Assembly (NCBI GenBank): GCA_021775415.1
Contig: JAJFHV010000019.1
Location: forward strand, 62,001 to 126,000
Length of the DNA: 64,000 bases
Reading direction: 5' to 3'
DNA from: Hyphomicrobiales bacterium
Lineage (GTDB): Bacteria; Pseudomonadota; Alphaproteobacteria; Rhizobiales; Rhizobiaceae
Shown here one piece after another: positions 57,111 through 62,521 of the stretch; position 1 is the stretch's first letter; every line of letters begins with the position of its first letter. Below the pieces are notes generated by a model. That model had not been told where the DNA came from and ran no database searches. It saw only the letters and a program-made list of their open reading frames with translations. The position numbers and the translations under genes are program-made.

Positions 57111-59582
57111 ATGCTATTGAGAATATTCGGATATTTGTTCGGGATGGGAATATTGGTAGCCATTTGCGCAGTGGCTGTCGTGTCCTGGTATGTGAGTGAT
57201 CTGTCGAAAGACCTTCCGGATTACGAAGTGCTAAACGCCTATGAACCCCCGGTTACGACCCGTATCCATTCCTCCGACGGTTCGCTGATGGCGGAATATG
57301 CGCGCGAACGCCGCCTTTTCCTGCCAATTCAGGCCGTTCCCGAATTGATCAAACAAGCATTCCTGTCAGCCGAAGACAAGAATTTCTACAAGCACAATGG
57401 AATTGATCCCAGCGGACTTGCCCGAGCCGTTATTACAAATTTGCGCAATTACGGTACTGATCGGCGCGCGGTTGGTGCTTCCACCATTACCCAGCAGGTT
57501 GCAAAAAACTTTTTGTTGTCAAATGAACGTTCCATTGACCGCAAGATCAAAGAAGCCATTCTGTCCCTGCGTATTGAGCAGGCTTACTCCAAAGATCGAA
57601 TTTTGGAGCTTTATTTAAACGAGATATTTTTCGGCCTGGGTGCCTATGGTGTTGCGGGAGCGTCGCTGACCTATTTCGACAAATCGGTTCATGAGCTGAC
57701 TTTGCATGAGGCGGCCTATCTGGCAGCACTACCGAAAGCACCAAACAACTACCATCCGTTCCGCAAAACCGAAAAAGCCATCGAGCGCCGCAACTGGGTA
57801 ATTGATCGCATGGTTGTCAACGGCTATGCGGGCGCTGAAGAGGCTGCAAAAGCCAAGGAAATGGGTCTGGATGTCAATCCAAGGCGAGGCTCAAGCTATT
57901 TGTTTGCCTCGGAATATTTTGCTGAGGAAGTGCGCCGCGAGATCGTTGGTCGATACGGCGAAGACGCGCTTTATGAGGGTGGCCTTTCCATTCGAACAAC
58001 GCTTGATCCGCAAATGCAGGTTTATGCACGTCGGTCCTTGATCAACGGGTTGGTGAAATTTGATACTGCTCGCGGGTTTCGCGGACCAGTCGAAAAAGTC
58101 GAAGTTGGCGCTGACTGGGGCGAGGCGATTGGAGAAATTGAAGACCTTTCGGATGTTCCAGAGTGGAAGTTGGCGGTTGTATTGGCGACGGAACCAGGTT
58201 CAGCAACCATTGGACTTCAACCTGGTAAAGAAGCATCCGGCAAACTCAAATCCGAACGTCGGCTGGGGTCCATTGCACTTGATGAAATGAAATGGGCGCT
58301 GGCTGTACGCATCAAGGATGACAAACGAACGGCCAAAGGCGTCGATGGGGTGCTTAATCCAGGCGATGTGATTTATGTGGAATCCACAGAAGGAGATGTT
58401 GAAACCGCCAAACGTTTCACGCTTCGCCAAACGCCGGAAATCGCAGGTGCGGTGATTGCGATGGACCCGCATACCGGTCGTGTGCTGGCAATGGCTGGAG
58501 GATTTTCATTCGCAGATTCCCAGTTCAACCGGGCAACGCAGGCTTACCGTCAACCCGGTTCATCCTTTAAACCGTTCGTTTATGCAGCAGCACTCGACAA
58601 TGGCTATACACCGTCTTCCGTGGTGCTCGATGCCCCCATCAAAATCAACCAGGGCCGGGCGCTTGGTATCTGGGAACCCAAAAACTATGGCGGTAAATAT
58701 GCAGGACCTTCCACTCTGCGGCTTGGTATTGAGCGCTCACGGAATTTGATGACCGTGCGGCTTGCCAAGGACATGGGCATGCCACTGGTTGCGGAATATG
58801 CCGAGCGGTTTGGAGTTTACGACAAAATGCTTCCTGTTCTTTCCATGTCGCTTGGTTCTGGAGAAACCACAGTGCTCAGGATGGCTGGTGCATATTCGGT
58901 GCTTGCAAATGGCGGGAAATCCATCAAACCCTCGCTGATTGACCGCATTCAGGATCGCTACGGCAAAACCATATTCAAACACGAAGAACGCATCTGCCAT
59001 GATTGCAATGCTCAATCGTGGCAAGGGCAGGAAGAGCCCGAGCTGGAAGATGACCGCGACCAGGTGCTTGATCCGATGACGGCCTACCAGATGACCTCGA
59101 TGATGGAGGGGGTTGTTATTCGTGGAACAGCAACCAGCGTCAGTGCACTGGGTGTTCCGGTTGCTGGCAAAACCGGCACGACCAATGAGGAAAAAGATGC
59201 TTGGTTTGTCGGGTATACACCTGATCTGGTGACCGGCGTTTATGTTGGGTATGACACCCCGCGCCCGATGGGACGGGGCAGTACTGGTGGTGGACTTGCC
59301 GCACCGATTTTTACCGAATTCATGCAGTCGGTTCTTGAAGGCAAGAACCCGGTCAACTTTCGTGTTCCCAAGGGTATCAAATTGATACCGATCAACCGCA
59401 AGACCGGCCTGCTGGCAAATGCTGGGGGTGATGAGGTGATCATGGAGGCTTTCAAGCCTGGTACTTCACCACCGGATGTTTACTCGGTGATTGGTTTTGC
59501 AGACGATCTGCTAAGCGGCGAGTTGACCGTTTCACCAGATGCCAACCGGGCGATCCTGTCTGGTACGGGTGGGTTGTACTAG
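57111..59582 (+). CDS. mrcA: Penicillin-binding protein 1A (bifunctional glycosyltransferase/transpeptidase)
   Basis: An 823-residue class A PBP. The TM anchor is at about 5-28. The GT51 domain carries FLSAEDKNFYKHNGIDPSG, GASTITQQVAKNF and RKIKEAILSLRIE. An OB-like linker follows, then the transpeptidase domain with SSFK in RQPGSSFKPFVYAAAL, SRN in IERSRNLMTVRLA, and KTGTTNEEKDAWFVGYTPDLVTGVYVGYD. The open frame upstream to 57051 lacks conservation, so the ATG at 57111 is used. The last 38 codons include an 83-bp segment (59466-59548) that recurs at 60348, after the metal cassette. The tail may therefore have been replaced during an insertion. Confidence 0.95.
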   Translation: MLLRIFGYLFGMGILVAICAVAVVSWYVSDLSKDLPDYEVLNAYEPPVTTRIHSSDGSLMAEYARERRLFLPIQAVPELIKQAFLSAEDKNFYKHNGIDPSGLARAVITNLRNYGTDRRAVGASTITQQVAKNFLLSNERSIDRKIKEAILSLRIEQAYSKDRILELYLNEIFFGLGAYGVAGASLTYFDKSVHELTLHEAAYLAALPKAPNNYHPFRKTEKAIERRNWVIDRMVVNGYAGAEEAAKAKEMGLDVNPRRGSSYLFASEYFAEEVRREIVGRYGEDALYEGGLSIRTTLDPQMQVYARRSLINGLVKFDTARGFRGPVEKVEVGADWGEAIGEIEDLSDVPEWKLAVVLATEPGSATIGLQPGKEASGKLKSERRLGSIALDEMKWALAVRIKDDKRTAKGVDGVLNPGDVIYVESTEGDVETAKRFTLRQTPEIAGAVIAMDPHTGRVLAMAGGFSFADSQFNRATQAYRQPGSSFKPFVYAAALDNGYTPSSVVLDAPIKINQGRALGIWEPKNYGGKYAGPSTLRLGIERSRNLMTVRLAKDMGMPLVAEYAERFGVYDKMLPVLSMSLGSGETTVLRMAGAYSVLANGGKSIKPSLIDRIQDRYGKTIFKHEERICHDCNAQSWQGQEEPELEDDRDQVLDPMTAYQMTSMMEGVVIRGTATSVSALGVPVAGKTGTTNEEKDAWFVGYTPDLVTGVYVGYDTPRPMGRGSTGGGLAAPIFTEFMQSVLEGKNPVNFRVPKGIKLIPINRKTGLLANAGGDEVIMEAFKPGTSPPDVYSVIGFADDLLSGELTVSPDANRAILSGTGGLY
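59466..59548 (+). repeat. Direct repeat, copy 1: 3-prime end of the PBP1a gene
   Basis: This 83-bp stretch codes for residues PPDVYSVIGFADDLLSGELT and onwards in PBP1a. It matches 60348-60430 in 72 of 83 positions, in the same orientation. Seven of the 11 differences are silent in the PBP1a frame or are C-to-T changes. The two copies bracket the MerF-like and MerR genes. Confidence 0.85.
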
Positions 59583-59620
59583 GCATTGGCTTGAGCGTGA
59601 GCAGGGTCGGTGTAACATTT

Positions 59621-59821
59621 TCAACTTTGTGCCTTGTAATACCGATAATAAAGAATGGCCCCCGCTGCGGCTAGCATCAAGAGTCCAATGCTCACCTTGC
59701 CTAGAAGGGCTAATCCTATGCCGCCTGCGGCGAAGGCTGCAACAACCGGTGGGATAATGAGAGGCAAACAGCAGGCCACGCACGCTGCCATGACCAGTGT
59801 TACGGATTTTTTGATATTCAT
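59621..59821 (-). CDS. Small MerF/MerT-like membrane protein (putative metal transporter)
   Basis: A 66-residue protein with two hydrophobic helices: residues 7-30, carrying C14-x2-C17-C18-L-P, and 38-57. A vicinal Cys-Cys followed by Pro in the first helix is typical of MerF/MerT mercury-uptake proteins (CC-x-P type). It lacks the second C-terminal cysteine pair of MerF. ATG 59821 has AAAGG upstream; residues encoded before it are not conserved. It is divergent from a MerR-type gene and follows a MerR-type promoter, so induction by a thiophilic metal is likely. No merA or merP is present. Confidence 0.65.
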   Translation of the reverse strand: MNIKKSVTLVMAACVACCLPLIIPPVVAAFAAGGIGLALLGKVSIGLLMLAAAGAILYYRYYKAQS

Positions 59822-59878
59822 AGTTTTACCTTTTTTGGATTTTGACTTGATTCCTGTCTGCGAAGAAATACCGTAACC

Positions 59879-59895
59879 CTTCAAGTTACTTGAAG
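59879..59895 (-). promoter_or_regulatory. MerR-type operator and promoter
   Basis: CTTCAAGTTACTTGAAG is a perfect 8-bp-arm dyad with a 1-base centre. On the minus strand it sits in a 19-bp spacer between TTGTTC and TACGGT, the stretched spacing that MerR-family activators correct by DNA distortion. The promoter reads into the MerF-like gene. The regulator gene starts on the other side. Confidence 0.65.
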
Positions 59896-59913
59896 AACAA
59901 GAGGTTTATTCCA

Positions 59914-60336
59914 ATGGCATCACACGGCCCTGTGTTCACAATTGGCAGCACGGCGAAAAGGGCTGCAATAAAGACATCGCGCATAAGATATTATGAAGAA
60001 ATTGGCCTGCTGCCCAAGGCTGCCCGCACACAAAGCGATCAACGCATCTACACCACGGCTGACCTGAAGCGCATAATATTCATAAAGTGGTGCCGAGACT
60101 TTGGTTTCTCGCTTGCGCAGGTCCGCAAGCTGCTAGGGCTCTCGGTCAGCGCAAGCCACGATTGCAGCGAAGTTGGTCAAATTGCGAGTGAGCACCTCGG
60201 CGAAATCCAACAAAGAATTGCGGAGTTGCAACAGCTGGAGACCACGCTTCGCGGGCTAATCAATAAATGTGAGGGAGTTTGCGGTGGGAGCCCCGGGCGT
60301 GAATGCCTTGTGTTTGAGGGTATCCAAGTTTCCTGA
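59914..60336 (+). CDS. MerR-family metal-responsive transcriptional regulator
   Basis: A 140-residue MerR-type activator. The winged HTH has KTSRIRYYEEIGLLPKAARTQSDQRIY, and DLKRIIFIKWCRDFGFSLAQVRKLLGL follows. A long dimerisation helix (92-118) leads to the metal loop. Cys84 (SHDCSEV), Cys119/Cys123 (NKCEGVC) and Cys131 (GRECLVF) match the three-cysteine pattern of MerR (Cys82, Cys117, Cys126), so a thiophilic metal such as Hg, Cd or Pb is likely. The start at 59914 is preferred to the in-frame start at 59890. It forms a two-gene unit with the divergent MerF-like gene. Confidence 0.85.
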   Translation: MASHGPVFTIGSTAKRAAIKTSRIRYYEEIGLLPKAARTQSDQRIYTTADLKRIIFIKWCRDFGFSLAQVRKLLGLSVSASHDCSEVGQIASEHLGEIQQRIAELQQLETTLRGLINKCEGVCGGSPGRECLVFEGIQVS

Positions 60337-60347
60337 CCCCCGATAAC

Positions 60348-60430
60348 TCACCACTGGATGTTTACTTGGTGATTGGCTTTGCCGATGATTTGCTGAGCTG
60401 TGAGTTGACCGTTTCACTGGATGCCAACCG
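60348..60430 (+). repeat. Direct repeat, copy 2: displaced PBP1a tail fragment
   Basis: 83 bp matching the end of the PBP1a gene (59466-59548) at 72 of 83 positions. In the PBP1a frame it would read P-L-D-V-Y-L-V-I-G-F-A-D-D-L-L-S, so the frame is kept but four changes alter residues (P to L, S to L, G to C, P to L). It has no start codon and is not expressed as PBP. Its minus strand codes for the last residues of the VWA protein. Confidence 0.85.
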
Positions 60431-61159
60431 TGTCGGGGTTGTGTTACCGGCTACCGGCGTTGGACGAATTTCCCGTTCCAGTTTTTTGCCAATGGCCCGT
60501 GAAAAATCAGTGTAGTCCTGCGCTGTCATCACGAATGCGCCTGGACCGCCGATCAACTGGCTACGGAAATAAGCTTTGAGATCGGGGATTTCGTTAAGGA
60601 TCGCCAGCCCGTTAATCGTGATGTCGTGTTCGATAACTTTTTCGCGTGCCTGACGCAGCAAACGACCGTCATTGGAGCGGCCGTCACCGGAGAGATCAAT
60701 CACCCTGCGCAGGCCTGAATAGTTGTTGGTTTGTATTTCGTTCGACGCGACCGCCAGCGCATCGCCGATTGCCGTTTGACCGGCGGGAGCTGGCCTGTTC
60801 ATGGATTCTATCTGGATGGCAAAATTCAACACATCGGCTTTTCCATCAAGATGTGTCCAATCGACAGATTTGTACTGAAGTGTCTGTTGAGCCCATTGAA
60901 TAACACATACCACAATGCCACCGGATGCCAGTACAGCCTCGAGGACGGCAGGGCTTCTTACCGCGTCCGCCAAGCCATCGATTTGCAAACGGTATTCCTG
61001 CTCATTTACGCTTGCGGATACATCGACCAGCAACGCGAGTTCAAGGCCGACTGTCTGGCGGCTCTGTCCATAAGCAGGGACGATACTCGCCACCATCGAG
61101 AATACCAGAAAGAGTGCACAAATGTGTGGAACCAATCGGGCTCTTTGAGCGATACGCAT
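60362..61159 (-). CDS. DUF1194 secreted VWA-domain protein
   Basis: A 265-residue exported protein with a signal peptide (ALFLVFSMVASIVPAYG). The VWA domain has the intact MIDAS motif LLVDVSASV, and the DUF1194 patterns IQWAQQTLQ, GQTAIGDALAVA and RVIDLSGDGRSNDG. The role is unknown. The final 22-23 residues are encoded by the complementary strand of the duplicated PBP1a tail (60362-60430), so the natural C terminus may have been replaced. It is convergent with the MerR gene. Confidence 0.8.
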   Translation of the reverse strand: MRIAQRARLVPHICALFLVFSMVASIVPAYGQSRQTVGLELALLVDVSASVNEQEYRLQIDGLADAVRSPAVLEAVLASGGIVVCVIQWAQQTLQYKSVDWTHLDGKADVLNFAIQIESMNRPAPAGQTAIGDALAVASNEIQTNNYSGLRRVIDLSGDGRSNDGRLLRQAREKVIEHDITINGLAILNEIPDLKAYFRSQLIGGPGAFVMTAQDYTDFSRAIGKKLEREIRPTPVAGNTTPTRLASSETVNSQLSKSSAKPITK

Positions 61160-61395
61160 GACCTAACCTATCCAAACTTTGAGATCATTGCCAGATTTCG
61201 GTTCGCGGTAGCGCCCGGGATGACAGTGTGGTTCGCCATACAATGCCATGCCACTACCTCAAAACGGGTGCCTGAGTGTAAATGTGTGTCCAATTTTCTC
61301 TCACATGTTTACAGTACTACGAAGGATGCCTATGTTCCGGCTGGATTTTGGAAAATCCTGATTCCACATTATTGAATGATACGAGGTAGCAAGAA

Positions 61396-62521
61396 ATGCG
61401 TGCAGAAACGCAGGCAATTGTCTCTGAAATCAAGCAGGCCGTAAGCCTGCTGAGGAGGCACCTTTGACTGGGATAAATCCAATGCGCGGCTTGGCGAATT
61501 AAACGCCAGGGCCGAAGATCCTGACTTATGGAATGATTCCGATGCAGCGCAGAAACTGATGCGCGAGCGACAGCATCTTGAGACCAGCATCAGCACCATT
61601 CGAGATATTGAGTCCGAGCTTGATGACCACATCGGATTGATTGAGCTGGGTGAAGAAGAAGGTGATACAGCAATCGTTGCAGAAGCAGAAGCTGCACTTG
61701 CGAAAATGCAATCCGAGATGGGTCGTCGTCAGGTTGCAGCACTGCTTTCGGGTGAAATGGATACGAACAATTGCTTTCTTGAGGTCCACGCCGGAGCGGG
61801 TGGGACCGAGAGTCAGGATTGGGCGAACATGCTTTTGCGGATGTATATCCGCTGGGCCGAGAAGAATGGCTTCAAGGCGGAGGTGTTGAGTACAACAGAC
61901 GGGGATGAGGCCGGTATCAAGGCTGCATCGATCATGGTGCGCGGTGACAATGCGTTTGGCTGGCTGAAAACCGAATCCGGAGTGCACAGGCTGGTGCGGA
62001 TATCACCGTTTGACAGCAACGCGCGGCGCCACACATCATTTTCATCAATCTGGGTCTATCCCGAGATTGATGACAATGTGGAAATTGAAATCCAGGACAA
62101 GGATATTCGAGTTGATACCTACCGCTCGTCAGGAGCTGGAGGACAGCATGTGAACACCACGGATTCTGCTGTGCGGATAACGCACTTGCCGACCGGTATT
62201 GTTGTTACCTCGTCTGAAAAGTCACAACATCAAAACCGTGCGAATGCGATGAAGGCGTTGCGGGCACGGTTGTTTGATATGGAAATGAAAAAGCGCCAGG
62301 AATCCATACAGGAAGCGCATGACTCCAAGTCGGATATTGGGTGGGGACACCAAATCCGTTCCTACGTGCTGCAACCCTACCAGTTGGTGAAGGATTTGCG
62401 CACAGGCGTGGACAGTACCTCACCTGATAATGTGCTGGATGGCGATCTCAATCCGTTTATGGAAGCAGCTCTTGCCCACCAGGTGACCGGCAGTGACGGG
62501 GTGGTGGAAGATCTGGAGTGA
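61396..62521 (+). CDS. prfB: Peptide chain release factor 2, expressed by programmed +1 frameshift
   Basis: RF2 reads UAA and UGA and releases the peptide with its GGQ motif. Frame one starts at ATG 61396 with GAGG upstream and reads MRAETQAIVSEIKQAVSLLRRHL, then TGA at 61465. A +1 shift leads into D-W-D-K-S-N-A-R-L and a full RF2 of about 374 residues. RISPFDSNARRHTSF is the region before the GGQ. SSGAGGQHVNTTDSAVRITH has the GGQ, and the tripeptide anticodon SPF is also seen. The join is 61396-61464 plus 61466-62521. It is autoregulated: low RF2 favours the shift. Confidence 0.93.
61453..61468 (+). promoter_or_regulatory. RF2 programmed frameshift site
   Basis: AGGAGGCACCTTTGAC: an internal Shine-Dalgarno (AGGAGG), then the slippery CTT codon, the in-frame TGA stop, and C as the next base, a weak stop context. 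The spacing of 3 bases from AGGAGG to CTT is the canonical layout. Autoregulates prfB. Confidence 0.95.

Follow-up and report, generated by a model that had tools for sequence, protein, structure and literature searches.

In a stretch of 64,000 nucleotides from a Hyphomicrobiales bacterium (GenBank assembly GCA_021775415.1, contig JAJFHV010000019.1, positions 62,001 to 126,000; referred to below as the window), the 3' part of the PBP1a gene is present twice, once within the intact gene and once beyond a small cassette coding for a MerF-like protein and a MerR-family regulator. The genome containing the window comprises 3.46 Mb on 23 contigs. PBP1a (mrcA type, 57111 to 59582, forward strand) is encoded by a complete gene, whose product of 823 amino acids matched the Pfam domains Transgly, PCB_OB, and Transpeptidase as well as TIGR02074 above cut-off. 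The protein ends in SGTGGLY. For comparison, we inspected 11 loci from the same genus and 80 named loci, the latter being the best of at least 591; the GTGGLY terminus of PBP1a was present in 11 of 11 and 21 of 80 of these loci, respectively.

The first copy of the repeat (copy 1, 59457 to 59548, forward strand) is coding and corresponds to PBP1a codons 783 to 813. It is followed by the last 34 nt of the gene (59549 to 59582). On the reverse strand, an open reading frame (59621 to 59821) encodes a Cys-rich protein of 66 amino acids, counted from an ATG, with a CVACCLP motif. Divergently oriented to it lies the gene for the MerR-family regulator (59890 to 60336, forward strand; TTG start, with an alternative ATG at 59914), in which the Pfam domains MerR_1, MerR, and MerR-DNA-bind were detected above cut-off. 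Only 2 nt past its stop codon, the second, truncated and decayed copy of the PBP1a tail (copy 2, 60339 to 60430, forward strand) begins with an abrupt join and no similarity before it. The final 34 nt of the gene are missing from copy 2, which joins the 3' end of a DUF1194/VWA gene encoded on the reverse strand (60362 to 61159; 265 amino acids, Pfam DUF1194 above cut-off); the 22 C-terminal codons and the stop codon of this gene overlap copy 2 in antisense (60362 to 60430).

Duplication of the PBP1a tail

The two copies form a gap-free direct repeat of 92 nt with 15 mismatches (84% identity). Within the whole window, this was the only pair of direct repeats at an E value of ≤1e-4 (E 1.5e-18), and its local score of 62 compared with a maximum of 19 over 300 first-order Markov resamples of positions 59583 to 61390. 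Both measures ruled out chance similarity; the duplication of the PBP1a tail is real. The initial annotation had recognized a repeat of 83 nt (59466 to 59548 and 60348 to 60430) bracketing the MerF-like/MerR pair. This holds as the core of the longer match, which reaches 9 nt farther to the left, and between the copies lie, besides the pair, the last 34 nt of PBP1a. With gaps allowed, no similarity signal was found past 60430 (P 0.59) or before 60339 (P 0.33), so that the last 34 nt of PBP1a have no counterpart past copy 2.

Since the true gene end is found after copy 1 only and copy 2 starts 2 nt past the MerR stop, we infer that incoming DNA supplied the present end of the gene. A simple target-site duplication was considered and rejected, because the native end would then follow copy 2, but it follows copy 1 only. 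The layout supports this part of the initial annotation, according to which PBP1a kept an intact tail after an insertion at its 3' end, while a displaced tail came to lie beyond the insert and began to decay.

Divergence and decay of the two copies

The nearest relative sampled, a genome designated G003 here, encodes a PBP1a with 84% identity to that of the window and was used together with two outgroup loci (L065 and L067) to polarize the changes. Over the 92 nt, copies 1 and 2 differed from each other at 15 sites, copy 1 differed from G003 at 17, and copy 2 from G003 at 24. Two clean shared-derived sites united the copies and none conflicted with them; when the outgroups were counted separately, 5 sites grouped the copy pair, 2 grouped copy 1 with G003, and 1 grouped copy 2 with G003. 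Since the inferred common node, copy 1 has undergone 4 changes (one of which rests on an outgroup tie-break), all of them synonymous and at third codon positions. This amounts to 4 of 24 synonymous versus 0 of 68 nonsynonymous sites (P 0.004). Copy 2 has undergone 11 changes, which are distributed over codon positions 1, 2, and 3 as 2, 5, and 4. Six of them alter an amino acid and six are C-to-T changes, the latter in agreement with the decay that had been described for the displaced tail. Neither the synonymous/nonsynonymous comparison in copy 2, split by hand (5/24 versus 6/68; Fisher P 0.15), nor the third-position test (5/12; P 0.37) revealed a significant excess. On the basis of the P values of 0.004 and 0.15, copy 1 has been under selection, and copy 2 has not demonstrably been so. 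The antisense DUF1194 frame was also considered as a test of constraint, but was set aside because this frame and that of PBP1a have their third positions in common (determined by hand), so that it offers no independent test. Copy 2 is a fossil of the PBP1a 3' end and probably noncoding. The rates, approximately 4 changes at 24 synonymous sites for copy 1 and 11 at 92 sites for copy 2, fit one split, since which copy 2 would have been unconstrained.

These counts bear on the origin of the incoming tail, which the initial annotation had assigned to a distinct related species, with the two copies already diverged as coding sequences before the displacement. Its observation that many differences fall at third positions was correct in number (8 of 15), although copy 1 contributes much of this signal and the changes in copy 2 are spread over all three positions. 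A period in which both copies were coding found no backing in the two tests of copy 2, and the synonymous excess on its branch, which would speak for such a period, was not significant. Moreover, the copies were nearest to each other (15 differences versus 17 and 24; two shared-derived sites versus none), a weak signal given the unresolved tree described below, yet contrary to a tail from a related donor. A relative without the cassette had been expected to match copy 2 better. However, at the 15 sites at which the copies differ, G003 agreed with copy 1 at 10, with copy 2 at 3, and with neither at 2; at the differing third positions, it matched both copies equally (3 and 3, with neither at 2). 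Because one duplication with decay after the split alone explains the differences, there is no need to invoke a foreign replacement tail, which we consider rather unlikely. An incoming tail from another species is possible, although nothing calls for it, and the donor could be of the same species.

Gene order in relatives and origin of the insertion

A scan for second PBP1a tails covered 100 of 101 relative loci from ∼90 genomes (one locus had <300 nt downstream). The genus loci were present twice in this set, L029 and L064 are apparently one contig, and loci of the window's own genome and PBP1a paralogues below 50% were left out. No tail repeat was found beside PBP1a in any of the 100 loci, which bears out the expectation that relatives without the cassette have a single tail. 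Likewise, none of the 91 loci used for gene-order comparison contained a MerF, MerR, or DUF1194 match near PBP1a at E ≤1e-6. In 67 of the 80 named loci, a match to prfB (release factor RF2) was located ≤700 bp from the PBP1a stop codon; it was farther away in 7, missing over >3 kb in 5, and one locus was too short. Among the 11 genus loci, prfB was adjacent in 2 and missing from >3 kb of downstream sequence in 6, and 3 were too short. As prfB is close to the PBP1a stop in most named loci, PBP1a-prfB is taken as the ancestral order. In G003, PBP1a is followed by a transporter-like open reading frame, identified by eye, and a relative of the DUF1194 gene is found on another contig (noted at L023, 7114 to 7545, and L033, 4410 to 5249).

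In the window, prfB is located at 61396 to 62521 on the forward strand, contains PCRF and RF-1 domains, and is taken as the ancestral downstream neighbor of PBP1a. It starts with an ATG at 61396 and has an in-frame TGA at 61465 after CTT, from which reading continues in the +1 frame at 61466. This arrangement corresponds to the programmed frameshift that is usual in genes for RF2.

The seven named loci with a distant prfB (L066, L076, L086, L097, L098, L112, and L142) have the match 0.7 to 3.2 kb past the PBP1a stop; the extra DNA there was checked for tail repeats only, and none were found. Because of these 7 loci among 80, the gap between PBP1a and prfB seems to take up DNA repeatedly.

We favor, with a probability of roughly 0.5, an origin of the fossil in which a piece of incoming DNA, carrying a PBP1a 3' end together with the divergent MerF-like/MerR pair, recombined at PBP1a after the split from G003. 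Homology within PBP1a would have mediated the joining, by a single crossover if the molecule was circular; a linear molecule would have been homologous at one of its ends and joined illegitimately at the other. The incoming copy 1 with the last 34 nt would then complete the working gene, and the resident tail would be pushed beyond MerR, where its decay would begin. Later, or in the same upheaval, the DUF1194 gene would have been placed right after the fossil, which would have lost its last 34 nt and come to contain the end of the DUF1194 frame.

Several points weigh against this account. The tree of both copies that the initial annotation had proposed was built by likelihood from 17 rows, including the tails of 15 relatives (the rows of G004, G002, and L068 contained a few extra upstream codons), and it placed copy 1, copy 2, and G003 in an open trichotomy, as 92 nt resolve little. 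The proportion of amino acid-changing differences in copy 2 (6 of 11) compared with copy 1 (0 of 4) was not significant (P 0.10). The left junction showed no clear microhomology (5 of 9 nt match at 60339 to 60347), where the exact point of joining is uncertain. A second event is required to truncate copy 2. Finally, no relative with the cassette at PBP1a or with an intermediate stage was found among the loci compared.

The same layout might have arisen if the MerF-like/MerR pair had first arrived downstream of an intact PBP1a, if unequal exchange between sister chromosomes had then produced a tandem duplication of the block of tail, MerF, and MerR, and if the arrival of DUF1194 had removed the second MerF/MerR as well as the end of the second tail. 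The copies would need no difference when duplicated, and PMC3784515 names tandem duplication as the commonest type of partial duplication among bacteria. Against it stand the three events required and the lack of any second MerF or MerR remnant, the tail repeat being the sole direct one at E ≤1e-4 within the window. We therefore regard this course of events as somewhat unlikely.

An element with an integrase that targets the 3' end of PBP1a, and of which all but the MerF-like/MerR cargo was lost, is very improbable, even though a restored gene end with a displaced old end is, as we take it, the layout that such elements leave. The cassette region spans only ∼790 nt, no tail repeat occurred in the 100 relative loci, and a literature search found no PBP1A integration site for an integrase or genomic island. 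An attachment repeat should, moreover, reach the gene end on both sides, but copy 2 falls 34 nt short. As to the statement of the initial annotation that no integrase remains, no tyrosine recombinase (PF00589) was detected on this contig; the genome has six PF00589 matches elsewhere. Transposases of the PF01527 family were absent from the genome, and no search was aimed at serine recombinases or at further families of transposases.

The DUF1194 gene and its overlap with the fossil

DUF1194 genes of this type were found in 2 of 199 genomes of the family (E ≤1e-55), namely, the present genome and G003. The G003 relative is 62% identical and lies next to a FAD dehydrogenase-like open reading frame, identified by eye. 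Since it is on a different contig from PBP1a, the DUF1194 gene has changed its position in the lineage of either the window or G003. A chromosome piece holding both a tail fragment and DUF1194 might thus have come in from elsewhere and brought copy 2 with it. This would require, however, that the fragment landed by coincidence 0.8 kb from its source. Furthermore, the two genes of the window's genome that are most similar to the FAD dehydrogenase-like neighbor, although of unproven orthology, showed no trace of DUF1194 within ∼1.5 kb. Such a joint arrival is therefore extremely improbable.

Judged from its reading frame, the C terminus of the DUF1194 protein appears to be made from the fossil. 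It is tentatively conceivable that the fossil has been overprinted, with its antisense strand supplying the last 22 residues and the stop codon of DUF1194, which would explain why the 92 nt have stayed free of gaps. If true, a scrap of a housekeeping gene would have been turned into coding sequence for a different gene, read from the other strand. This putative antisense use, seen as an open frame, is the least ordinary point of the locus. The remainder looks like an ordinary recombination or insertion scar of a known kind and not like a new mobile element. It is a readable scar, in which a small accessory cassette has settled beside an important gene without breaking it: the gene gained a working end, and the old end remains as a neutral clock. 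The pair of a functional and a dead copy allows constrained and unconstrained change to be compared at one locus.

The cassette and known systems compared

The 66-amino-acid protein was judged by eye to be MerF-like and of membrane nature; no Pfam or NCBIfam family was matched. The C terminus of the MerR regulator is complete in alignment with homologues. The regulator scored below the cut-off of every NCBIfam model that it matched, and therefore the metal sensed, if any, is not assignable. Genuine mercury-resistance mer genes differ from the pair in both respects, as the MerR equivalog model gave 90.9 bits versus a cut-off of 150.85 and the MerF-like protein has no family match; neither "MerF" nor "MerR of mercury resistance" is to be read as a literal description. 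Relatives of the regulator had ≤41% identity in 11 other genus genomes and 40 to 47% in 5 of 198 other family genomes (E ≤1e-30), and none were found in 384 other genomes of the class at E ≤1e-36. The best among the matches listed for plasmids were 54% (Pelagibacterium) and 51% (Sinorhizobium pEm1132b) identical, and pSinB had a match of 46%. In none of 8 such loci did PBP1a lie beside the MerR relative, and the donor molecule or genome was not identified.

The MerF-like protein was found in the window's genome alone among 199 family and 385 class genomes, a search in which distant forms may be missed. A plasmid search with a low-complexity filter gave no match at E ≤1, which is not evidence of absence, as it missed a Pelagibacterium frame. 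With the filter off, this plasmid (L145, 2256 to 2642) showed a MerF-like frame of 37% identity ∼0.4 kb from the MerR relative, the two lying within 0.7 kb. The frame is absent from the gene table of the plasmid; a small annotated gene covers part of it, and the remainder extends behind that gene. On Sinorhizobium pEm1132b (H2), the divergent neighbor of MerR starts with a similar Cys-rich, membrane-like CAACC stretch. The third plasmid examined (H5, pSinB) had no MerF-like or Cys-rich neighbor of MerR. Like the cassette, the Pelagibacterium and pEm1132b clusters combine MerR with a Cys-rich neighbor; unlike it, they contain an additional domain or gene, situated between these parts or behind them. 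By this resemblance, the cassette seems to be a cut-down portion of clusters carried by plasmids, and a plasmid with a MerR relative and a MerF-like neighbor is a plausible kind of source.

In contrast to genomic islands at gene 3' ends, which carry an integrase inside or next to the element, no PF00589 match accompanies the cassette on its contig. Effector-immunity modules of Vibrio type VI secretion systems, for which insertion by one-sided homology has been proposed in the description given by PMC5361080, are similar in that a module is added next to an anchor gene and older genes are moved downstream. Their cargo consists of effectors acquired in successive events, whereas here a single event would have taken place beside a cell wall enzyme gene. 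For rhs genes, displacement of C-terminal ends via circular intermediates, leaving displaced tips, has been proposed (Jackson et al. 2009, PMC2935791). As outlined there, the incoming DNA provides the gene end, and a silent remnant of the former end is displaced in the downstream direction, with one crossover of a circle as the proposed route, and at PBP1a, too, a displaced 3' end lies downstream of an intact gene. The new rhs end differs, however, and changes the protein, whereas the tails encoded by both ends found here, which belong to a housekeeping enzyme, are almost alike, copy 2 still reading as this PBP1a tail with six substitutions, and the cargo is an unrelated pair.

Closest in outcome is the partial duplication of a homologous locus by homology-facilitated illegitimate recombination or single crossover. 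In the Escherichia coli conjugation test as presented in PMC3240628, 56 of 60 clones gave a PCR product for such a partial duplication, and the duplications in 14 sequenced clones measured 109 to 950 bp, which was interpreted as a single crossover involving a circular molecule that contained part of the homologous sequence. The locus described here shares with it the homology at one end of the insert (84% over 92 nt) and the abrupt nonhomologous join at the other. That system was a laboratory selection with a plasmid, whereas the duplication at PBP1a would reflect an old natural event of 92 nt, seen after decay.

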